64,000 nt of DNA from Bacillota bacterium (GTDB taxonomy: Bacteria > Bacillota > Sulfobacillia > Symbiobacteriales > ZC4RG38): positions 124,001 to 188,000 of the forward strand of contig JAKKUO010000001.1 of the NCBI GenBank assembly GCA_021890795.1. The letters are read 5' to 3'. Shown here piece after piece: positions 1 to 55,194 of the stretch. A program made the position numbers and the translations under genes. The first letter of the stretch is position 1. Each line of letters begins with the position of its first letter. The notes beneath the pieces are model-generated. The model did not search any database, was not told where the DNA came from, and saw only the letters and a program-made list of their open reading frames with translations.

Positions 1-2145
1 TCCGCAGGGCTGGCCGCGGCCGCCACGGTCACCTGGTTCCTCGCCGACGTGCTGGGCCTGGAGGCGGAGGCCGCCGCGGCCTTCGGCCTCTTCGCCGGGG
101 GCCTGGCGGGGACCGCAGCCTGGAACCTCAGCGGCCGGTACGGCCGGGATGAGGAGGCCGAGGCCCGGGCGGAAGCCGCCCGCCAGGCCCTGGCCGAATT
201 GGACGCCCGGATCCGGGACCTGGACCCCCGGCTCGGCCCCTTCGCGGGGGCCGACGCGGTGGCACTGGGGGAACTCCGCCGCCGGCTCCAGGACCGGCAG
301 CAGGCCCGGGAACGGCTGGCCCGGTTGGAAGCCGAGGTCCCGGCCCCGGCAGCGCTGGCGGACCTCCGGGAGCGGCTCGCCGCGGCCCGGGCGGGGCTGG
401 CCCACCTGGAGCGGGAGGTGGCGGCCGCCGGCGAGGGCGGCGTCCCCGGCGAGACGGCACCCGCCGGGCCGGCGGAGCGGTACGCCCGGTGGCGGGAGTG
501 CCGCCGCCGGCTGGAGGAGGCCGAAGCCCGGCTCCGGGAGGTGGCGGCGGCGGAGTTCGGCGTGGGGCCGGAGGAAGTGGCCGGGCTGCCGGTGACCGCC
601 CTGGAGGGGAAGTGGCGGGCCCTCGCTACCCTGGCGGAGGTGACCGGCACCCCCTGCTCCACCGCGGGGGACCTGCTGAACTGGATCGGCGAACTGGGCC
701 CCGGCCACTGGCAGGAATGGGAGCAGGAGGCCAGGACCTGGGAGTGGGCAGCCCGGCGGCTGCGGGAGATTGAGGTGGAGCGCCGGCAACTGGAGGCCCC
801 CGGCCCGGACGGCCGCACACTCCGGGAGCGGCTGGAGGCGGAGAGCGCGGCCCTGGCGGAGGCCGTCCGACCCTTTACCGCCGATACCGACCCCGAGGAA
901 CTGGCCCGGCGGGTCCAGGCGGCCGGGGCCCTGGAGCAGGCGGCTCAGGAGGCGGCCGCATCCCTGGCCACCCTCCAGCGGGAGCTGGCCACCCTGGCGG
1001 AGCGGCGGGCGGAACTGAACCGGGCCGCCGGCGCGCTGGCGGAGAGTCTGGCGCCGGTCCTGGGCCCGGCAGGGGGCGATGTGGCCGCAGCCCGGGAGCG
1101 GCAGGCAGCCTTCGCGGCCCTGCAGGAGGAGCTGGCCCGGGCGGAACGGGATCTGGCGCTGCTCCTGGAAGCCCGGGGTGTCCGGTCCCCGGCGGAACTG
1201 GCGGATCGGCTGGAAGAGGCCCGGGCCGACGCCTTCGGCGCCCGGCGCCGGCAGCAGGAGCTTCACCGGCGGTTCCCGGCCCTGCCGGACCCCGATGAGG
1301 AGCACGACCCCGCCGGGCTCCAGGCGGCTTATGCGGAGCTGCAGGCCCAGGCGGAGACGACGGAGCGGGAACTGCGGGCTGCGGAGGCGGCGGAACTCGA
1401 CCTGCGCCGGCGGCAGGCCGAACTCCAGGGCCGGGAGGTGATCAACGTCGCCGCCGCGGAGCTGGAACTCCGGCAGCTCCGGGCCCGGCGGGAGGAGCTG
1501 ATCCGGAAGCGGGACGCCCTGGCCCTGGCCTACCGGGAGCTGAAGGCTGCGGTGGAGTCCTACCAGGCCAGCCACCGGGAGCGGCTCTCCCAGGCGGCCA
1601 CCGCCCACTTCGCCGCGATCACCGGCCGGCCGGGGCGGCAGGTGGTCCTGGACCCCGGCTTCCGGGTGACGGTCTACGAGCCCGACGGCCGGCAGGTCAG
1701 CCCGGATCAGCTCAGCCAGGGGGCCCGGGACCAGCTCTACTTCGCCCTCCGGCTGGCCATCGCCGACCTGCTGGCCGCCGCAGTCCGGCTGCCCCTCATC
1801 CTGGACGACCCCTTCGTCAACTCCGACGGCACGCGCCTTGGCCGGATCCGGGAGGCCCTCCGGCGGATGAGCGGCGACCGGCAGATCCTGCTCCTGGCCC
1901 ACAACCCCGAGTACCGCACCTGGGGACAGCCCGCCGCCCTGGCCCACGGCGATGACCCTGCCCGAGCCCTGGGCGCGGACGGAAACCCGTCCCCTGGTAC
2001 GGCTTCCGGCCCGACCCCCGGTATGGCCAGGGGCTCGGCCCAGAGCGCAGCCGCGGACCTGGCCCCTGGCATCGCCGCCGGCGGGCCGCCCGCCCCGGCT
2101 CCGGGCTCAGACGGCGGGAACGACCGGGGAGGTGACCCCACCTGA
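1..2145 (+). CDS. YhaN-type SMC/Rad50-like AAA ATPase, 5' end outside window
   Basis: Partial gene: the frame is open from base 1, so the start lies upstream, and the GTG at 49 is internal. The first ~48 codons form a hydrophobic hairpin (WFLADVLGL, then an Ala/Gly-rich stretch). This matches the membrane segment found mid-protein in YhaN-type ATPases. A long Arg/Glu/Ala coiled coil follows. The C-terminal ATPase half shows the ABC signature LSQGARDQL (1714-1740), Walker B LPLILDDPF (1789-1815) and a switch motif LLLAHN (about 1890-1905). The last ~50 residues are Gly/Pro/Ala-rich low complexity. In Bacillus, yhaN pairs with a SbcD-like nuclease (yhaO) and acts on DNA ends; here it is translationally coupled to addB. 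The family assignment rests on architecture, and the N-terminal Walker A is not visible. Confidence 0.85.
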   Translation, partial: SAGLAAAATVTWFLADVLGLEAEAAAAFGLFAGGLAGTAAWNLSGRYGRDEEAEARAEAARQALAELDARIRDLDPRLGPFAGADAVALGELRRRLQDRQQARERLARLEAEVPAPAALADLRERLAAARAGLAHLEREVAAAGEGGVPGETAPAGPAERYARWRECRRRLEEAEARLREVAAAEFGVGPEEVAGLPVTALEGKWRALATLAEVTGTPCSTAGDLLNWIGELGPGHWQEWEQEARTWEWAARRLREIEVERRQLEAPGPDGRTLRERLEAESAALAEAVRPFTADTDPEELARRVQAAGALEQAAQEAAASLATLQRELATLAERRAELNRAAGALAESLAPVLGPAGGDVAAARERQAAFAALQEELARAERDLALLLEARGVRSPAELADRLEEARADAFGARRRQQELHRRFPALPDPDEEHDPAGLQAAYAELQAQAETTERELRAAEAAELDLRRRQAELQGREVINVAAAELELRQLRARREELIRKRDALALAYRELKAAVESYQASHRERLSQAATAHFAAITGRPGRQVVLDPGFRVTVYEPDGRQVSPDQLSQGARDQLYFALRLAIADLLAAAVRLPLILDDPFVNSDGTRLGRIREALRRMSGDRQILLLAHNPEYRTWGQPAALAHGDDPARALGADGNPSPGTASGPTPGMARGSAQSAAADLAPGIAAGGPPAPAPGSDGGNDRGGDPT

Positions 2146-5100
2146 GTCTGCGGTTTGTCGTCGGCCGGGCCGGCACCGGCAAGACCCAGCACTGCCTGGA
2201 GGCGATCCGGGCCGAGCTTCTCTCGAGCCCCCAGGCGGGGCCGCCCCTCATCCTGCTGGCACCGGAGCAGGCCACCTTCCAGATGGAGCAGGCCCTGATC
2301 CGCACCCCGGGGCTGAAGGGCTTTGAGCGGGCCCAGGTCCTCAGCTTCCGCCGGCTCGCCTGGCAGGTGCTTCAGGAGGTGGGCGGGGCAGCCCGGCCGG
2401 CCATCGGCGACCTGGGCAAGCGGATGGTGCTCCGGGCCCTCATCCAGCGCCGGCTCGGGGAGCTGCGGCTTTTCGGCCGGGTGGCCGGCCGCCCGGGTTT
2501 CATCGATCAGCTCGCGCAAACCATCGGGGAACTCCACATCTACGGCCACGACCCCGAGGACCTGCAGGCGGTCTGGCAGGCCCTGGAGGCGGAAGGGGCC
2601 GGCGCCGGCGTCCTCGGCGCCAAGCTCCACGACCTGAGCATCATCCTCCGGGACTACCGGGACTACCTCCGGGACCGGTTCACCGACCCCGACGACTACC
2701 TGACGCTCCTCGCGCGGCGGCTGGGGGAGTCCCGGCGGCTCCGGGGAGCCCGGGTCTGGGTGGACGGGTTCCAGGGCTTCACCCCCCAGGAGTTCGACGT
2801 CCTGGAGGCCCTCTTGCGGGTGGCCGAGGCGGTGGAGGTCACCCTTTGCCTGGATAGCCGGGACCTGCCCCGGTGGGACGCGGAGGACCTGGACCCGACC
2901 CACCTCTTCCACCCCACCGCGGAGACCTACGTGAAGCTCCGGGCCCGGGCCCGCCGGGCCGGGGTCCCGGTGCTGCCGCCCCTCATCCTCGACGGGAACG
3001 AGCCTCCGTACCGGTTCCGGGGATCCCCGGCCCTGGCCCACCTGGAGCGGGAGTTCTTCCGGCAGCCCGGTGAGCCGCTGCCCGAGCCGACGGAGGCGGT
3101 GGAGGTGGTCACCGCGGCCAACCGCCGGGCGGAGGTGGAGGCCGCGGCCGCGGAGGTGCTGCGCCTCGTCCGGGAGGAGGGGCTCAGGTTCCGGGAGATT
3201 GGCGTGGTCACCCGGGATCTGGAAGCCTACGACGGGCTGGTCCGGGCCATCTTCACCGCCCGGGGGATCCCGCACTTCATCGACCGGCGCCGGCCGGTGG
3301 GCCATCACCCCCTGGTGGAATTCCTCCGCTCCGCGGTGGAGCTGGTGGTGACCGACTGGGCCTACGAGCCGGTCTTCCGGCTCCTCAAGACCGACCTCCT
3401 GCCGGTCCGCCGGGAGGACGTGGACCGGCTGGAGAACTACGTCCTCGCCCACGGCATCTGGGGTCGGGCCTGGTACGACGGGGAGCCCTGGCGGTACTTC
3501 CGGCGCTTCACCCTGGAGGAGGACCGGGAAGAGCCCGATCCCGTTCAGGAGGCGGAACTCGAGGCGATCAACCGGATCCGGGAGGAGGTGGCCCGCCCCC
3601 TGCGGCGGTTCTTCCGCCGGGTCCGGGAAGCCCGGTTCCGACCCTGGCCCGCCCGGGAGCTGGCGGCGGAACTCTACCAGCTGCTGGAGGCGGCAGGGGT
3701 GCCCGCCCGGATCCGCCGGTGGGCCGATGCCGCCCGGGCCGCGGGTCACCTGGAGAAGGAGCAGGAGCATCTCCAGACCTGGAACGGGGTGGTGGAACTC
3801 CTCGACCAGGTGGTGGAGAGCCTGGGGGACGAGCCCCTCACCGCGGCGGAGTTCCTCACGGTGTTGGAAGCAGGGCTCTCGGGCCTCACCGTGGGGCTGG
3901 TGCCGGCAAGCCTCGACCAGGTGGTGGTGGGGAGCCTGGACCGGTCCCGGCACCCGGCGCTGCGGGCGGTGCTGATCCTCGGGGTCGCGGACCGGCGGTT
4001 CCCCCGGGCCGCGGAGGAGGATGTGATCTTTACGGACCTGGAGCGGGAGCGGCTGGAGGCAGCGGGGTTTGAGCTGGGGCCCACGGCCCGGCGCCGCACC
4101 CTGGATGAGCAGTTCTTCGTCTACCTGGCCCTCACCCGGGCCTCGGAGCGGATCTGGCTCAGCTTCCCGCTGCTGGACGAGGAGGGGCGGGGGCAGGCCC
4201 CGTCCCTGGTGCTCCAGCGGATCCGGCAGCTGCTCCCGGGGGCCCGGTACCGGGAGGTGGGTGCCGGGGAGGCGGACGCCGGGCCCGGGGGGATCAGCCG
4301 GCCGGTGCAGCTCGCCGCCGCGGTGGCGGAGCGGCTCCGCCAGGCCCGGGAGGGGCAGCCCCTGGACCCCCTGTGGCTCGACCTCTACCAGTGGCTGGTG
4401 ACGGATCCGTCCCTCCGGGAGGCCGCCCGGCCGGTGCTGGCGGCCCTCGGCCAGACCGGGACGAGCCGCCCCCTGTCACCGGAGGTGACCCGGGCCCTCT
4501 ACGGGGCCGGGCTCCGGACCAGCGTCAGCCGCCTCGAGAGCTTCGCCGCCTGCCCCTTCCAGCATTTCAGCGCCTACGCCCTCGGGCTCAGGGAGCGGGA
4601 GCGGCTGGCGGTGGAGGCGCCCCACCTGGGGGTGCTTTTCCATGCGGCCCTCCGGCTCTTCGCCCAGGGCTTGATGGCCGATGGGGTGCCCTGGGACCGC
4701 CTCACCCCCGAGGAGCAGTACCGGCGGATCGACGCGATCCTGGAGACCCTGGTGCCCCGGCTCCAGGGCGAGATCTTCCTCAGCACCGGCCGCTACCGGT
4801 ACCTGCTCCAGCAGGTCCGCCGGACGCTGCGGGCCGCGGTGGGGCTCTTGGCCGAGCATGCCCGCCGGGGCCGGTTCCAGCCCTGGCTGGTAGAAGCAGG
4901 CTTTGGCGCCGGGGAGGAGCTGCCGCCCCTCACCCTCGACCTCCCCGGCGGCGGACGGGTGGAGCTCCGGGGCCGGATCGACCGGATCGATGGGGCCCAC
5001 GGCCCGGGAGGCGCCACCTACCTGCGGGTGGTGGACTACAAGAGCGGCCTCCGGCGGCTCAGCCTCGGGGAGGTCTACTACGGCCTGGCACTGCAGCTTC

Positions 5101-5681
5101 TCATCTACCTGCTGGTGGCCACCGAGGCCGGGGCTCTCCGGGACGGCGCCCAGGAAGCGGTTCCCGCGGGGGTGCTCTACTTCCCGGTCCGGGACCCCCT
5201 GGTCCGGCTCCCGGGCCCCGAGAAACCGGAGGAAGTGGTCCGGCTCTGGCGCCGGAAACTGCGGATGGAAGGGCTGGTCCTCGCCGACCCCGAGGTGGTC
5301 CGGCTGATGGACGAGGAGGCGGCGGGCGACCTGATCCCCGTCCGGCTGACCAAGGACGGGGGCTTTGCCCGGGGGGCCCGGGTGGCCACCCGAGAGCAGT
5401 TCCAGGCTCTCTTCGACCTGGTCCGGGACCGGGCCGCGGGGGCTGCGGCGGCGATCCTCGCGGGGGAGATCGGCGTCCGACCTTACCGGCTCGGGGACCG
5501 GACCCCCTGCCCGCACTGCGCCTACCGACCGGTCTGCCAGTTTGACCCCCGGTTCCCGGGCCACCGGTACCGGGACCTCGCCCCCCTCCGGGACCCCGAC
5601 GTCTTAGCCCGGCTGGCCGGGGCGGAGCCGGCCGCCGAGGCGGCGGTAGCCGCAAGGGAGGAGGTACAGGATGCCCCCTGA
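2142..5681 (+). CDS. addB: ATP-dependent helicase-nuclease subunit AddB, CTG start
   Basis: AddB subunit of the AddAB helicase-nuclease, which resects double-strand breaks and recognises Chi. Start choice: the Walker A motif GRAGTGKT (residues 8-15) lies upstream of the first ATG (2283), and an in-frame stop at 2133-2135 blocks any earlier start. The only workable start is CTG at 2142, giving MSLRFVVGRAGTGKT as in the family. A GGGGAGGTGA Shine-Dalgarno lies 7 nt upstream, and the gene overlaps the preceding stop by 4 nt. Length is 1179 aa, close to B. subtilis AddB (1166). The four iron-sulfur cysteines are present: C804 (AACPF), then C1123, C1126 and C1132 (CPHCAYRPVC). The RecB-type nuclease core is VVDYKSG. 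addA follows with an 11-nt overlap. Confidence 0.95.
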   Translation: MSLRFVVGRAGTGKTQHCLEAIRAELLSSPQAGPPLILLAPEQATFQMEQALIRTPGLKGFERAQVLSFRRLAWQVLQEVGGAARPAIGDLGKRMVLRALIQRRLGELRLFGRVAGRPGFIDQLAQTIGELHIYGHDPEDLQAVWQALEAEGAGAGVLGAKLHDLSIILRDYRDYLRDRFTDPDDYLTLLARRLGESRRLRGARVWVDGFQGFTPQEFDVLEALLRVAEAVEVTLCLDSRDLPRWDAEDLDPTHLFHPTAETYVKLRARARRAGVPVLPPLILDGNEPPYRFRGSPALAHLEREFFRQPGEPLPEPTEAVEVVTAANRRAEVEAAAAEVLRLVREEGLRFREIGVVTRDLEAYDGLVRAIFTARGIPHFIDRRRPVGHHPLVEFLRSAVELVVTDWAYEPVFRLLKTDLLPVRREDVDRLENYVLAHGIWGRAWYDGEPWRYFRRFTLEEDREEPDPVQEAELEAINRIREEVARPLRRFFRRVREARFRPWPARELAAELYQLLEAAGVPARIRRWADAARAAGHLEKEQEHLQTWNGVVELLDQVVESLGDEPLTAAEFLTVLEAGLSGLTVGLVPASLDQVVVGSLDRSRHPALRAVLILGVADRRFPRAAEEDVIFTDLERERLEAAGFELGPTARRRTLDEQFFVYLALTRASERIWLSFPLLDEEGRGQAPSLVLQRIRQLLPGARYREVGAGEADAGPGGISRPVQLAAAVAERLRQAREGQPLDPLWLDLYQWLVTDPSLREAARPVLAALGQTGTSRPLSPEVTRALYGAGLRTSVSRLESFAACPFQHFSAYALGLRERERLAVEAPHLGVLFHAALRLFAQGLMADGVPWDRLTPEEQYRRIDAILETLVPRLQGEIFLSTGRYRYLLQQVRRTLRAAVGLLAEHARRGRFQPWLVEAGFGAGEELPPLTLDLPGGGRVELRGRIDRIDGAHGPGGATYLRVVDYKSGLRRLSLGEVYYGLALQLLIYLLVATEAGALRDGAQEAVPAGVLYFPVRDPLVRLPGPEKPEEVVRLWRRKLRMEGLVLADPEVVRLMDEEAAGDLIPVRLTKDGGFARGARVATREQFQALFDLVRDRAAGAAAAILAGEIGVRPYRLGDRTPCPHCAYRPVCQFDPRFPGHRYRDLAPLRDPDVLARLAGAEPAAEAAVAAREEVQDAP

Positions 5682-39596: not shown

Positions 39597-40478
39597 TCGA
39601 CCGGTGGGGGGCGGGGAACCCCCGGGGGTGCTGCCTCCCGGCCCCCTGGCGGGGGGCGGGCGGCCCTCGCCGCTCTCCCGGGTCCCGGACCGGGCGGGCC
39701 CGGCCGGGGGCGGGATGACCAGGATCTGCCCGGGCTCCAGCTGGTAGGGCTCGGTGAGCCGGTTGGCCCGGGCGAGGCTTCCGGGAGAGACCCCGAACTT
39801 CCGGGCGATGCGCCAGAGGCTGTCGCCCCGGCGGACGCTGTAGATGGCCTGGGCCGGCCCCGGGAGGAGGGAGCAGGGGACAAAGACGTCCACGTAGCCG
39901 TCCCGGGTCCCGGCCACCACCTGCCCGTCGGGGGTCCCCTGGGCGGTGACCAGCCCGCCGGTGTAGACCCGGCCCAGCTCCTCGAGCCGGGCCTCTCCGC
40001 CGGCGGTACGGATCTGAAAGACGTACAGGGTCTGGGCGCCGGACCCGGCGGCCACCACCTCGGTGCGGCCGTCGCCGTCCACGTCCGCCAGGTCGACGCT
40101 GCGGAAGTACGCGCCCGGGAAGAGGAGGGTCTGGCAGAGCAGGGCGAGGCCCCCGGAGCTGAGGCCGTAGAGCAGGACCCCGTCCCGGGTCCCGACGGCT
40201 ACGGCCCCCACCCCTTCCGGGGTGAGGCTGCCGGCGGCCAGGCTGAGCCCCTCCCGGCCGAGCTCCGCTTCCCACCGCAACTGGTAGGTATCACCGGTCC
40301 AGTCAAAGACCTTCAGTTCCGGCCCGGCGAGGGCAACGATCTCCGCCGCACCGTCGCCGTCGAGATCGGCGGTGCGGACCAGGAGCGACCGGCCGAGGCC
40401 GCCGCCCCGCCAGCGCCGCGCCATGCCGCCGGCCTGCGGCTTGCCGGCACCACCTCCGGCCTGTGGGCGTTCGTACAT
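39594..40478 (-). CDS. FG-GAP repeat protein with C-terminal LysM domain
   Basis: 294 aa. ATG at 40478 follows GAGGTGGG; a GTG 9 nt earlier is less well placed. Two calcium-loop FG-GAP motifs are visible (TADLDGDGAAEIVAL and LADVDGDGRTEVVAAG), within a beta-propeller-like repeat region (~15-200). A LysM peptidoglycan-binding module follows (YSVRRGDSLWRIARKFG through LEPGQILVIPPP, ~212-258). The tail is Pro/Gly-rich. The odd point is the absence of a recognisable signal peptide, although LysM and FG-GAP both suggest a cell-wall or spore-cortex location. The function is unknown; a spore-associated role would remove the need for a signal peptide (inference). Confidence 0.8.
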   Translation of the reverse strand: MYERPQAGGGAGKPQAGGMARRWRGGGLGRSLLVRTADLDGDGAAEIVALAGPELKVFDWTGDTYQLRWEAELGREGLSLAAGSLTPEGVGAVAVGTRDGVLLYGLSSGGLALLCQTLLFPGAYFRSVDLADVDGDGRTEVVAAGSGAQTLYVFQIRTAGGEARLEELGRVYTGGLVTAQGTPDGQVVAGTRDGYVDVFVPCSLLPGPAQAIYSVRRGDSLWRIARKFGVSPGSLARANRLTEPYQLEPGQILVIPPPAGPARSGTRESGEGRPPPARGPGGSTPGGSPPPTGR

Positions 40479-40544
40479 CGGACCCACCTCAACCCCGTCA
40501 GCGTCCTGTCACCAGGTTATGTCGCCGACAAGGGAGGCGTGCAT

Positions 40545-41333
40545 ATGGTTCGCTACGCGATCATTGGCGGGACGGGGGTCTACGATCCCCGGATCCTGAC
40601 GGACCTCCGCCGGGAGCGGGTGGAGACCCCCTGGGGGGCCATCGAGGTCCAGATCGGGACCTACAAAGGGCGGGAGGTGGCCTTCCTGCCCCGGCACGGG
40701 GCCGACCACTCGGTGCCGCCCCACCGGATCAACTACCGGGCGAACATCTGGGGGCTCAAAAAGCTCGGGGTGGAGCGGGTCCTGGCCACCACCGCGGTCG
40801 GGTCCCTCAACCTGGAGATGAAGCCCGGGGACTTCGTCTTCATCGACCAGTTCATGGACTTCACCAAGGGCGGCCGGCCCCTCACCTTCTTCGAGGGCGG
40901 CCCCGACGGGGTGGTCCACACCGACGTCACCGAACCCTACTGCCCCGAGCTTCGAAAGACCTTGATCCAGGCGGCAGAGGAGCTCGGGCTCCGGCACCAC
41001 ACCCGGGGCACCTACGTCTGCACCGAGGGACCCCGGTTTGAGACCGCGGCGGAGATCCGGGCCTTCCGGACCCTGGGCGGCGACCTGGTGGGCATGACCA
41101 ACGTGCCCGAGGCGGTGCTGGCCCGGGAGGCGGGGCTGTGCTATGCGGTCATCTCCATGGTGACCAACTACGCGGCGGGGATCTCCCCCCAGCCCCTCAC
41201 CCACGAAGAGGTGCTGGAGGTCATGGCAGCGAATGCAGAAAAGTTGAAGTCCCTGGCCATGCGCTGCCTGGAGCAGATCCCGGAGACCCGGGGCTGCAGC
41301 TGCGGCAAGCACACCCCGCCTCTCAAGGTGTAG
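40545..41333 (+). CDS. mtnP: MTAP-family nucleoside phosphorylase, possibly S-methyl-5'-thioinosine phosphorylase
   Basis: Purine nucleoside phosphorylase superfamily, MTAP branch, 262 aa. ATG 40545 ([18 protein letters not shown]) follows AGGGAGG. Motifs: phosphate loop [38 protein letters not shown] and [13 protein letters not shown]. The base-binding stretch, TDYDCW in human MTAP, is TNYAAG here with N208 in place of the adenine-binding Asp. Asn at this place is the signature of 6-oxopurine enzymes (PNP N243; Pseudomonas methylthioinosine phosphorylase has NPAAG). Substrate is therefore likely methylthioinosine or a 6-oxopurine nucleoside rather than MTA. Followed by ahcY and mtaD, which supports the deaminated route. 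Confidence 0.85.
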
Positions 41334-49928: not shown

Positions 49929-50729
49929 TCATGCGGCGGTGATCCGCCCCTCCCGGTAGCAGGGAGCCACCGGGAGGACATCGAGCCGGGCGCACCAGTC
50001 CAGGTCGGCGGCCAGCCCGAGCTCCAGAAGCCGCCGGCCATGGTCGGTCTGGCGGAAGAGCTCGGCCAGCCGGCCCTCCCAGTGCCTGAAAAGGGCGACC
50101 GCGGCCAGGGCGAGATCGTTTCCCGGCACCCCGATCCCCCTGGCCGCTAGCCCATCCACCAGGGCGCCCGCGCCCACGACGTCCTCGAGGGAGAAGGCCC
50201 CCTGGCCGCCGGCGCAGACCACCGCGACGTCGGCGCCCAGGGCCGCCAGCCGGTCCACCACCGCGGCCCGGTTGACCAGGGCGGCGAGGTAGACCGGCCC
50301 GAGGGCGGCGGCCCGGAGGATCGCCCGGGTACCGTTCGTGGTGGTCACGTAGATCTCCCGGCCCCGGACCCGCTCCGGAGTCATCTCCCGGGGGGAGTTC
50401 CCCAGGTCAAAGCCGGGAATCTGTACACCGCCCCGTTCCCCAGCCAGGAGGGGCGGGAGGTGCGGCCCCGCCCCGGGGGAGCCGGGAAGACCGGCGGAGC
50501 CGGAGGAGTCCGGTTTGCCGGAGGAGCCGGTGGCCGTGGCAGCCGCCGCGGCCCGGCGGGCCTCCTCAGGCTCGAGGTAAGGCACCACGGCCCGGGCCCC
50601 GGCCCAGAGGGCCTGGGCGATGGTGCTGGTGGCCCGGAGGACGTCGATGGCCACTGCGGCGCCCACCCGCGGCGGGTCCGCGGGCAGGTCGGCGGGGGTA
50701 GCGTACACCCAGATGCGCAGGTCGAACAC
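49929..50729 (-). CDS. comB: ComB-family 2-phosphosulfolactate phosphatase
   Basis: 266 aa. The family hydrolyses 2-phosphosulfolactate, a step of coenzyme M synthesis in methanogens; many bacteria carry ComB without making coenzyme M. Motifs: VAIDVLRATSTIAQAL (N-terminus), GNSPREMTPERVRG, TTTNGTRAIL, VVCAGGQGAFSLEDVVGAGAL and GNDLALAAVALF. A Gly/Ser/Pro-rich insertion lies near residues 66-92. Start: GTG 50729 is adjacent to its Shine-Dalgarno GGGAGG, with no spacer; a CTG three codons later has ideal spacing and may be the real start. Confidence 0.9.
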   Translation of the reverse strand: MFDLRIWVYATPADLPADPPRVGAAVAIDVLRATSTIAQALWAGARAVVPYLEPEEARRAAAAATATGSSGKPDSSGSAGLPGSPGAGPHLPPLLAGERGGVQIPGFDLGNSPREMTPERVRGREIYVTTTNGTRAILRAAALGPVYLAALVNRAAVVDRLAALGADVAVVCAGGQGAFSLEDVVGAGALVDGLAARGIGVPGNDLALAAVALFRHWEGRLAELFRQTDHGRRLLELGLAADLDWCARLDVLPVAPCYREGRITAA

Positions 50730-51357: not shown

Positions 51358-51472
51358 TCTCCGCCGGTGAGGCCTGGGATCCCGGGAGAGGCCCACCGGC
51401 AGGATCCCGGGGCCGCCTGGGCGAATCGGTATGGGCCGGCGTCCACCCGACCCGGCGGAAGGGAGCCAGCCC

Positions 51473-54388
51473 GTGCTGGTAGATCGGTTTGTGGCCATCG
51501 ACCTGGAGACCACCGGCGGTGACCCGGAGGCGGACCGGATCCTGGAGATCGGGGCCGTCCTCTTCGAAGAGGGGGAGCCGGTGCTGGCCCGGTCCTGGCT
51601 CACGGACCCGGGCCGGCCGATTCCCCTCCGGTTTCAGCAGCTGACCGGTATCACCCCGGAGATGGTGGCGGGCAAGCCGCCCGCGGAGGCCGTGCTGCCG
51701 GAACTCCTGGCCCTCATCCAGGGCGTGCCGATCTTTGCCCACAACGCCGCCTTTGATGCGGCGTTTCTCGCCGCGGCCTGCCGGCGGGCCGGGCTGGAGC
51801 CCCCAGGGCCGGTCCTGGACAGCCTGGAACTGGCCAAGATCGCCTTTCCCCGGGCCCGATCCTACCGGCTGGGGGCCCTGGCCCGGGAACTGGGGATCCC
51901 CCTGGTCTCGGCCCACCGGGCGGAGGACGACGCCCGGGCCGCGGGCTACGTGGTCGCCCGGGCCCTGGCCAAGCTTGGGGCGATGGAGACCGATGCGCTT
52001 CTGGAGATGCTGCGCCTCGCCCCGGGGGACTGGCCCCTCCGGCCCCTGGTGGAGGCGGCGGCAGACCGGCGGCTGAAGGCCGGGGCCCGGCCCCGGCCCA
52101 AGGCCGCGTGGATCCCACCGCATCCGGTACCTCTCCACGGGGGCGAGGAACCACCCCCGCCGGAGCCCATCCGGCCCGTGGACCCGGCCGAGGTGGCGGC
52201 GATCCTCGGCCCGGGGGGCGCGATCGCCCAGGCCCACCCGGGCTACGAACACCGGGAGGGGCAACTGGAGATGGCCCTCCGGGTCACCCAGGCCCTGAAC
52301 GCGGGCCGCCACCTCCTCCTGGAAGCCGGCACGGGGACGGGAAAGTCCCTGGCCTACCTGGTGCCGGCGTTCCTCTGGGCCCGGGCCAACCGCCGGCGGG
52401 TGGTGATCGCCACCCACACCATCACCCTCCAGGAACAGCTCTGGGAGCGGGAGATCCCGTTCCTCCTCCGGGCCCTGGGCTGGGAGAAGGAGGTGCGGGT
52501 GGCCCTCGCGAAGGGCCGGAACAACTACCTCTGCCTCCGCCGGTGGGAGGAGGCGGTGGCCGGCGCAGACTTCGGCACCGCCGTGGAGGAGCGCAGCTTC
52601 CTCATCCGGACCCTGGCCTGGCTCCAGGAGACAGAGACCGGGGACCGGGGAGAGCTGCAGCTCTCCGGCAGCCAGGAGGAGTACTGGCGGCAGGTGATGT
52701 CCGAGGCGGAGACCTGCCTGGGTCCCCGGTGCCAGTGGTTCCAGCGGCACTGTTTTGCCTTCCGGGCCCGGAAAAGGGCCCGGGAAGCGGAGATCCTCGT
52801 GGTCAACCACGCCCTGCTCCTGGCGGACCTCCGGGCCGGGGGAGGCGTCCTGCCGCCCTTTGACCACCTGATCATCGACGAGGCCCACCACCTGGAGGCG
52901 GTGGCCACCGAGCACCTGGGCCTCAGCCTCAGCGGCTGGGAGCTCCTCGGGGCCCTGGGCCGGCTCTTCCGGGGGTGGGGCGGTCCCCAGGGGCCTGGGC
53001 TGCTGCCCCACCTGAGGCGCAAGCTCCGGCGGCCGGTCCCCTCCCGGCCGCCCCTGGGCACCCCGGAAGACGACCTGCTGGAGCAGGTGACGGACCTGGT
53101 CCGGGGGGCCCGGGAGCGGGTGACGGAGCTGATGGCGGCCCTCGCGGCCCTGACAGCGGAAATGGGGGAAGGGGGCGACGGGGAAGGGGGCCATACCCTC
53201 CGGATCACCGCCCCGGTCCGGCAGAGCCTGGCCTGGGAGGCGGTGGAGGTAGCCCGGCAGAACGCCACCGGAGCCCTCCGGAGGCTGGCCGAAGCCCTGG
53301 CTCTCCTGGGGCAGGCCCTGGAGGAACTGGACGAGCCCCGGCCCGGGGACCTGGAAAGCACCCTGTTGGAACTCGCCCGGGAGGCGGGGTGGATCTACCA
53401 GGCCGCGCAGGATATCGACGAGGTCCTCCTGGGGGAGGACGAGGCCTACGTCCGCTGGGTGGAGGTGGGCCCGCCCCGCCGGGGCGGGGAGGTGCCGGTC
53501 ACCCTCCGGTCGGCCCCGGTCTCGGTGGCGGAGCTTCTCCGGGCCCAGCTCTTCGACCGGCTCCGGACGGTAATCCTGACCTCCGCCACCCTCACCGTCG
53601 GCGGCAGCTTCGACCACGTCCGGCGCAGCCTGGGCCTTGCGGACCTGGGGCCGGACCGGCTGGAGACCGGGGTAGTTCCCTCGCCGTTCCGGTACCGGGA
53701 GCAGGCCCTGGTCCTCATCCCCACCGACGTCCCCAGCCCCCGGGAGCCCGAAGCGGAGTACACCGAGGCCGCCGCCCGGTTTGTCCAGGAGCTGGCGGTG
53801 GCCGTCGGCGGCCGGACCCTGGTCCTTTTTACCTCCCACCGGATGATGCGGCAGGTGTACAATAGGGTGAAAGAGCCTCTGGAGGCCGCCGGGCTGGTCC
53901 TCCTGGCCCAGGGGCTGGACGGCCACCGGGCGCGGCTGGTGGAAGAGTTCCGGGCCGGCCACCGGGCAATCCTCTTCGGGGCGGCTTCCTTCTGGGAAGG
54001 AGTCGACATTCCGGGGGAGGATCTCTCCTGCGTGGTGCTGATCCGGCTGCCCTTCCTGCCGCCCGACGAGCCGGTGACCGCGGCCCGGACCGAGGCCCTG
54101 GAGCGGCAGGGGCTGTCAGCCTTCTTCCACCTGAGCCTGCCTCAGGCAGTGATCCGGTTCAAGCAAGGTTTCGGCCGGCTGATCCGGACCCGGCAAGACC
54201 GGGGGGTGGTGATCGTCTTCGACAGCCGGGTCGATCCCCGGCGCACCCGGTACGGGGCCCGGTTTCTTCAGTCCCTGCCGGACCCCCGGGTGGTGGCCGC
54301 CCCCCAGGCCGAAGTGATCCGGCTGGCCGCCGAGTTCCTGGCGATGCCCACGAGCCAAGGAGGGGAAGAGGTCTGCGCATCCTCCTGA
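51473..54388 (+). CDS. dinG: DinG-type helicase with N-terminal 3'-5' exonuclease
   Basis: 971 aa from GTG 51473, 7 nt after AAGGGAG. DEDDh exonuclease domain at ~1-190: VAIDLETTGG (D, E), FAHNAAFDAAFL (D), SAHRAEDDARAA (H, D). XPD/DinG helicase: Walker A GTGTGKS, four candidate Fe-S cysteines (NYLCLRRW, then ETCLGPRCQWFQRHC), DEAH box IIDEAHHLE, motif III TSATL, and motif VI region QGFGRLIRTRQDRG. The combination is the usual Bacillota DinG. It unwinds structured DNA in repair. It overlaps surE by 16 nt. Confidence 0.95.
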   Translation: MLVDRFVAIDLETTGGDPEADRILEIGAVLFEEGEPVLARSWLTDPGRPIPLRFQQLTGITPEMVAGKPPAEAVLPELLALIQGVPIFAHNAAFDAAFLAAACRRAGLEPPGPVLDSLELAKIAFPRARSYRLGALARELGIPLVSAHRAEDDARAAGYVVARALAKLGAMETDALLEMLRLAPGDWPLRPLVEAAADRRLKAGARPRPKAAWIPPHPVPLHGGEEPPPPEPIRPVDPAEVAAILGPGGAIAQAHPGYEHREGQLEMALRVTQALNAGRHLLLEAGTGTGKSLAYLVPAFLWARANRRRVVIATHTITLQEQLWEREIPFLLRALGWEKEVRVALAKGRNNYLCLRRWEEAVAGADFGTAVEERSFLIRTLAWLQETETGDRGELQLSGSQEEYWRQVMSEAETCLGPRCQWFQRHCFAFRARKRAREAEILVVNHALLLADLRAGGGVLPPFDHLIIDEAHHLEAVATEHLGLSLSGWELLGALGRLFRGWGGPQGPGLLPHLRRKLRRPVPSRPPLGTPEDDLLEQVTDLVRGARERVTELMAALAALTAEMGEGGDGEGGHTLRITAPVRQSLAWEAVEVARQNATGALRRLAEALALLGQALEELDEPRPGDLESTLLELAREAGWIYQAAQDIDEVLLGEDEAYVRWVEVGPPRRGGEVPVTLRSAPVSVAELLRAQLFDRLRTVILTSATLTVGGSFDHVRRSLGLADLGPDRLETGVVPSPFRYREQALVLIPTDVPSPREPEAEYTEAAARFVQELAVAVGGRTLVLFTSHRMMRQVYNRVKEPLEAAGLVLLAQGLDGHRARLVEEFRAGHRAILFGAASFWEGVDIPGEDLSCVVLIRLPFLPPDEPVTAARTEALERQGLSAFFHLSLPQAVIRFKQGFGRLIRTRQDRGVVIVFDSRVDPRRTRYGARFLQSLPDPRVVAAPQAEVIRLAAEFLAMPTSQGGEEVCASS

Positions 54389-55194
54389 CCAACGACGACG
54401 GTGTCTACGCCGAGGGGCTCCAGGCCCTGCGGGAGGCCCTCGAGAAACTCCCCGAGGTCGAGCTGTACATCGTGGCCCCTGACCGGGAGCGTTCGGCCTC
54501 CGGCCATGCGATCACCCTGCACCGGCCCATCTTTCCCACCCGGATCGAGATCTCCGGGGCCCGGGCGGTGATCTACTCGGTCAGCGGCACCCCGGCGGAC
54601 TGCGTGAAGCTGGCTATCGAGGAGCTGCTCCCGGGCCGGCCGGACCTGGTCATCTCCGGCATCAACCACGGGCCGAACCTGGGCACCGACGTGATCTACA
54701 GCGGCACGGTCTCCGCCGCCATCGAGGGCACCATCCTGGGCATCCCCGCGGTCGCCGTCTCCCTCTGCACCTTCGGCCCCGGGGACTACACCTTCGCCGC
54801 GCAGTTCACCCGGGATCTGGCCCTCAGGGTGGTGCGGGAGGGGCTCCCCCGGGGGACCCTCCTGAACGTCAACATCCCCCCGGTCTCCCCGGCCCAGTGC
54901 GCCGGCGTCGCCATCACCAAACTAGGGGTCCGGCTCTACAAGAACCAGTGGGACCGGCGGGTCGACCCCCGGGGAAAGGTCTACTACTGGCTGGCGGGCG
55001 AGGTCATGGAACTGCACAACGACCCGGACAGCGACGTGGTCGCCGTCCAGAACAACCTCATCTCCATCACCCCGCTGCAGCTGGACCTGACGGACTACCG
55101 GCTGCTGGAGCGGCTGAAGAGCTGGTCCTTCTCCCTTGGTGCGCCTCCGGGTCCGGGGGGCCAGGTCCGGGAGGGGGATGGCGCGGGGGACTGA
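54373..55194 (+). CDS. surE: 5'/3'-nucleotidase SurE, CTG start
   Basis: Metal-dependent survival-protein nucleotidase, 273 aa. The family begins MRILLTNDDG; here that motif is coded by CTGCGCATCCTCCTG at 54373. Upstream in frame there is no ATG, GTG or TTG near it, and the next start (GTG 54472) would remove the catalytic DD and give an inactive protein. AAGGAGGGG lies 7 nt upstream of CTG 54373. Other motifs: SASGHAITL, GTPADCVKLA, VISGINHGPNLG, YSGTVSAAIEG. Last ~20 residues are Gly/Pro-rich. Overlaps dinG, so translation is probably coupled. Confidence 0.93.
   Translation: MRILLTNDDGVYAEGLQALREALEKLPEVELYIVAPDRERSASGHAITLHRPIFPTRIEISGARAVIYSVSGTPADCVKLAIEELLPGRPDLVISGINHGPNLGTDVIYSGTVSAAIEGTILGIPAVAVSLCTFGPGDYTFAAQFTRDLALRVVREGLPRGTLLNVNIPPVSPAQCAGVAITKLGVRLYKNQWDRRVDPRGKVYYWLAGEVMELHNDPDSDVVAVQNNLISITPLQLDLTDYRLLERLKSWSFSLGAPPGPGGQVREGDGAGD

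Follow-up and report, generated by a model that had tools for sequence, protein, structure and literature searches.

The window, meaning the whole stretch of 64,000 nucleotides of the Bacillota genome G000 that was analysed, contains on its forward strand a gene for the 5'/3'-nucleotidase SurE (54373..55194, 273 aa), preceded by a gene for a dinG-like exonuclease/helicase on the same strand (51431..54388; start ATG 51431 or GTG 51473, stop TGA 54386-54388). The first codon assigned to surE is a CTG (54373..54375). Upstream of it lies the Shine-Dalgarno sequence AAGGAGGGG (54357..54365, forward strand, score 8.7). Its AAGGAGG part occupies 54357-54363, and nine nucleotides separate the last G of GGAGG (54363) from the CTG, compared with a mean of 8.3 to 8.4 for standard genes with a Shine-Dalgarno score of at least 6.5. 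The codons behind the CTG (CGC ATC CTC CTG ACC AAC GAC GAC GGT) encode RILLTNDDG. The open frame comprises 442 codons and opens 169 codons upstream of the CTG. Reading from the upstream stop, no in-frame ATG, GTG or TTG is encountered before GTG 54472..54474 (codon 202 of this frame). This first standard start is located 33 codons behind the CTG and downstream of TNDDG, and a start there would cost the protein 33 residues including the motif. CTG 54373 is the sole NTG codon within reach of the strong Shine-Dalgarno sequence and reaches a posterior of 0.97 as the start of surE with a prior of 2% for CTG. The two genes overlap by 16 nucleotides, the dinG stop beginning 13 nucleotides downstream of the C in CTG 54373. 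That base is at the same time the third base of a dinG valine codon, where all four NTG choices are silent; the overlap therefore does not force a CTG at surE.

The assignment to SurE is based on matches in NCBIfam, Pfam and PDB. The best NCBIfam match is NF001492 with 318.7 bits (cut-off 271), and in the 13 SurE models listed from this collection the match to the product started at CTG begins at residue 1 or 2. Furthermore, the match to the Pfam family SurE (PF01975) begins at residue 3, and 14 of 15 distinct SurE sequences from PDB align from residue 1, the remaining one from residue 3. In addition to a family model above its cut-off, the product has the NDD motif at its N-terminus, as part of the catalytic motif TNDDG, which has a metal-binding role.

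A search for surE in 61 genomes (G000 and relatives) gave a match in 47, and 30 loci were retrieved and aligned. CTG occupies the start column in two of them, the window genome and its sister species G001, whereas all 28 other loci of the class have ATG, GTG or TTG at this column or one codon before; TTG is found in 13 of the 30 start columns. The sister species, which comes from a separate assembly, shares 93.6% DNA identity with G000 over 3.8 kb. Within 300 nucleotides upstream of the CTG the two species show 17 differences (closest at −60), 15 of them at third positions of dinG, and within 300 nucleotides downstream 25 differences (closest at +29), 21 of them at third positions of surE. The 88 nucleotides around the CTG (−59 to +28, window 54314-54401) are identical in both species, compared with 42 differences in the flanking 600 nucleotides. 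In a count over 398 phylum genomes, CTG accompanied the SurE start motif in one (G000) and ATG, GTG or TTG in 192, the pattern being strict, the remaining genomes having no surE or a differing motif, and G001 lying outside this draw. By this count the predicted CTG start is exceptional for surE within the phylum. With no usable ATG, GTG or TTG, a properly spaced Shine-Dalgarno sequence, the start column of the homologues and conservation in two genomes, surE is very probably translated from CTG 54373. The first-pass annotation of this DNA had proposed this start, and the frame itself, the column of homologues and the sister species bear it out. Its two supporting statements also hold: no standard start precedes TNDDG, GTG 54472 being behind the motif, and AAGGAGG is placed correctly for the CTG.

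Two other explanations of the codon itself have to be considered. G000 is a draft genome of 103 contigs, and the CTG could be a sequencing or assembly error in place of TTG, GTG or ATG. However, G001 has the same CTG in spite of the divergence around it, and three further genes (addB, etfB and ksgA) are likewise read as CTG in both species, so that such an error is extremely improbable. Initiation could also take place by termination-reinitiation at another near-cognate codon in frame, ATC 54379 or CTG 54385. The former receives a posterior of 0.12 when all sense codons are allowed, and the latter forms, together with the dinG stop, a CTGA (54385-54388) of the common four-nucleotide overlap form. 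Nevertheless, the two codons lie 15 and 21 nucleotides behind the core of the Shine-Dalgarno sequence, and a start at either would remove residues just before TNDDG, presumably belonging to the first beta-strand of SurE. Since the start of the 28 other class loci coincides with the column of CTG 54373 or precedes it by one codon, these downstream codons are highly unlikely starts.

Seven CTG candidates of G000 were searched in six relatives. Of these, addB, etfB and ksgA have CTG also in G001 without a nearby standard start, and CTG is the predicted start of these three and of surE in both species of the genus. The gene addB is located in the window at 2142..5681 (+), behind the Shine-Dalgarno sequence GGAGGTGA (2128..2135, +, score 10.2), and its product matches TIGR02773 with 1029.7 bits from residue 2. 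A TGA stands in frame three codons upstream of the CTG; more generally, stops are found in frame 3 to 9 codons upstream of the CTG for addB in G000 and G001 and for etfB in G000, G001 and G002, a member of another genus of the family. At addB the start shares a CTGA with the stop of a long open frame (713 codons) located upstream, which gives weak Rad50/SMC matches (best E 1.2e-10, below the curated cut-off). The start codon of addB is CTG in G000 and G001, TTG in G002, and ATG in G003 and G004. From 30 loci of the class fetched, 26 could be aligned, with CTG in two and TTG in eight of the start columns and other standard starts within two codons. For etfB the codon is CTG in G000, G001 and G002 and TTG in G008; CTG occupies four of 30 class columns (the three genomes named and G059, where a TTG five codons upstream of the CTG is an alternative start), TTG occupies six, and the others have standard starts within two codons. 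In ksgA of G000 no standard start precedes the CTG.

The first-pass annotation had counted surE as the second CTG start in 64 kb. We take the other one to be addB at 2142, and its frame, its homologue column and G001 confirm it. A possible third had been seen in comB, encoding a 2-phosphosulfolactate phosphatase on the reverse strand (49929..50720 if CTG 50720 is the start). This CTG is indeed kept in G001, but so is GTG 50729, which precedes it by three codons in the same frame and overlaps the Shine-Dalgarno sequence; with 0.51 for CTG and 0.45 for GTG in the start scan the case is ambiguous. A similar arrangement was observed in a glycosyltransferase gene (L268 2973, −), which in both species has a GTG in frame three codons before the CTG (0.61 for CTG, 0.33 for GTG) and whose CTGA overlaps the end of an upstream open frame of 158 codons. 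Because of the earlier GTG neither gene was counted as a firm case. Apparent CTG starts were also seen in degV-family genes of G000 (L180 16996-17850, −) and G002 (L203 14337-15188, −); for the degV candidate of G000 and for the candidate at L245, the G001 start regions were absent among the loci compared.

The first-pass annotation had furthermore suggested that the lineage uses CTG initiation more than usual and had proposed a genome-wide count. A codon-blind start-finder was used, based on expectation maximisation (EM) with equal initial weight on all 61 sense codons. On 441 kb of G000 it assigned 12.4 of 286 starts to CTG. On 1.426 Mb it found 1139 genes, 989 of which were strong enough to use, and these were distributed over ATG (480.5), GTG (354.6), TTG (90.6) and CTG (20.4). 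CTG was the highest non-standard codon; GCG followed at 12.0, so that the noise of the method is of that order. In G002 CTG obtained 0.17 of 251, and the 16 codons listed for G003 (269 genes) do not include it. With a fixed prior of 2%, eight of the 989 genes of G000 were called CTG against 9.4 expected from misplacement, and AAA was called eight times as well, which is no excess. The same test gave five calls against 3.0 expected in G002 and two against 2.5 in G003.

A strict test required that clear coding sequence precede any standard start. It flagged ten of the 989 genes of G000, and four of these, surE, addB, etfB and ksgA, have a CTG behind a Shine-Dalgarno sequence. The other six have no CTG with a Shine-Dalgarno sequence, look broken or frame-shifted and were not counted. 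In G002 three of 251 genes remained, two of them being copies of one insertion-sequence ATPase gene; the Shine-Dalgarno scores of these three are 5.8 to 6.2, compared with 6.7 to 10.2 for the four of G000. At the two copies (L199 and L210; gene type named by eye) the apparent CTG directly follows a stop in frame. The controls gave none of 269 genes in G003, a relative from the same order, and none of 206 in 400 kb of a Cupriavidus metallidurans megaplasmid. Among 80 mixed loci with 363 scorable genes no gene was flagged, coding discrimination being weak there. Two earlier versions of the procedure were discarded: a codon model that learned from the longest open frames settled on the antisense frame, and its successor was seeded with genes of the window; a 'strict' test blind to codon identity did not work for ATG either (26 ATG of 699 genes). 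The count thus yields four firm CTG-only genes with a Shine-Dalgarno sequence in G000, but 4/989 does not differ significantly from the pooled controls G003 and Cupriavidus (0/475; p = 0.31). A lineage habit of CTG initiation is plausible, suggestive only, and not established.

Starts at CTG are documented in bacteria and are rare. In Belinky et al. (2017; PMC5622118) two, one and one switches to CUG are given for 68,906 reconstructed ancestral starts in 36 groups of genomes, their sum of four being ours. The genes described here resemble those cases in that, at a conserved position, a standard start has given way to an NTG preceded by a Shine-Dalgarno sequence; they differ in that at least four unrelated genes of one genus are concerned, with etfB also in another genus of the family. 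The work on infC and Streptomyces sigR, whose starts (ATT/ATC and GTC) are repressed by initiation factor IF3 (PMC5472188), offers another parallel in conserved starts other than ATG, GTG and TTG; the response to IF3 is documented there, whereas the CTG genes here are known from sequence alone. A literature search over titles and abstract openings returned, among the matches listed, no CTG start in surE or in this bacterial group, which is weak evidence of absence. Moreover, Deinococcus deserti reportedly has several genes with non-canonical initiation codons (Baudet and co-workers, 2010) and is in this respect a similar bacterium; the basis there is proteomics, to judge from the title, and here sequence.

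On balance we lean slightly towards the view that the CTG starts are genuine but no more frequent than in any genome of 70% G+C with strong Shine-Dalgarno sequences, where a handful would be invisible to gene finders, so that the lineage would not be special. The strict test without a significant difference from the controls and the fixed-prior count without an excess agree with it, as do the CTG calls in G002 and, less clearly, in G003. In addition, Prodigal by design considers ATG, GTG and TTG alone (PMC2848648), so that published counts may be too low. On the other side, the strict test recovers only roughly one true case in five (114 of 605 in simulation), and correction for this power raises the rate in G000 to 2.1% (CI 0.6-5.5%), against the four CUG switches in 68,906 ancestral starts (PMC5622118), a comparison limited by annotation practice. 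Furthermore, the CTG of surE is unique among the 193 genomes of the phylum with the motif, and a paucity of CTG starts is stated for mycobacteria (PMC4633059). A more far-reaching proposal would make CTG a regular fourth start codon of the family, used in about 2% of the genes (roughly 40 to 60 in the genome), including surE, addB, etfB, ksgA and perhaps degV, which would form a low-expression set tuned by the level of IF3 since infC starts at ATC. This we consider rather unlikely.

As to mechanism, CTG is probably tolerated as a near-cognate codon and not redefined. In bacteria the fMet initiator tRNA, with the anticodon CAU, apparently decodes every start codon (PMC5622118). At surE this normal tRNA would pair with CUG via a mismatch at the first position, and the protein would begin with fMet and not with leucine. 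The strong Shine-Dalgarno sequence may stabilise initiation there, and ribosomes finishing the overlapping dinG gene may assist it. Overlap with a preceding stop is a possible helping factor at surE, addB and the glycosyltransferase gene. An altered initiator tRNA was considered as a cause and discarded: the initiator-type tRNA looks normal, with a CAU anticodon and a GGG/CCC anticodon stem read by eye (30 of 58 tRNA loci and the fetched stretches were scanned). A missing IF3 was likewise discarded, the factor being present in all 13 genomes including G000. The mean Shine-Dalgarno score is 8.7 for the seven CTG candidates and 7.0 for ATG genes, a difference subject to selection bias. The sequences of the CTG genes (n = 6) are stronger than those of ATG genes (p = 0.015; 0.09 against GTG, 0.05 against TTG), but this comparison is partly circular because the candidates were chosen with a Shine-Dalgarno requirement.

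IF3 is described as a repressor of non-canonical starts, infC and Streptomyces sigR being the documented cases (PMC5472188). The infC gene of G000 (L162, G000:C6) itself has an apparent ATC start behind GGGAGGTGT, a strong Shine-Dalgarno sequence, and the same is seen in G001 and G002. In ten of 13 infC loci the N-terminus was found by eye, with eight ATC, one ATT and one ATA, which appears to be the pattern of IF3 self-control. Since infC apparently starts at ATC, discrimination by IF3 against codons of this kind is probably still in force, and translation of the CTG genes is probably weak and sensitive to IF3. As to their origin, the CTG starts probably arose from TTG, common in the class for surE, addB and etfB, by a T-to-C change in this genome, whose G+C content is 70%.

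Conserved CTG starts in named genes offer a test bed for lineage variation in initiation fidelity, as set by IF3, initiator tRNA and Shine-Dalgarno strength. They also matter for annotation: a gene finder limited to ATG, GTG and TTG would shorten SurE by 33 residues including TNDDG, AddB by 47 including GRAGTGKT, and EtfB by its first 21. At window 39882-41333 (+) a gene was called for which the best start guess is AAA and no standard start is present; this may be a spurious frame lying opposite a genuine gene.
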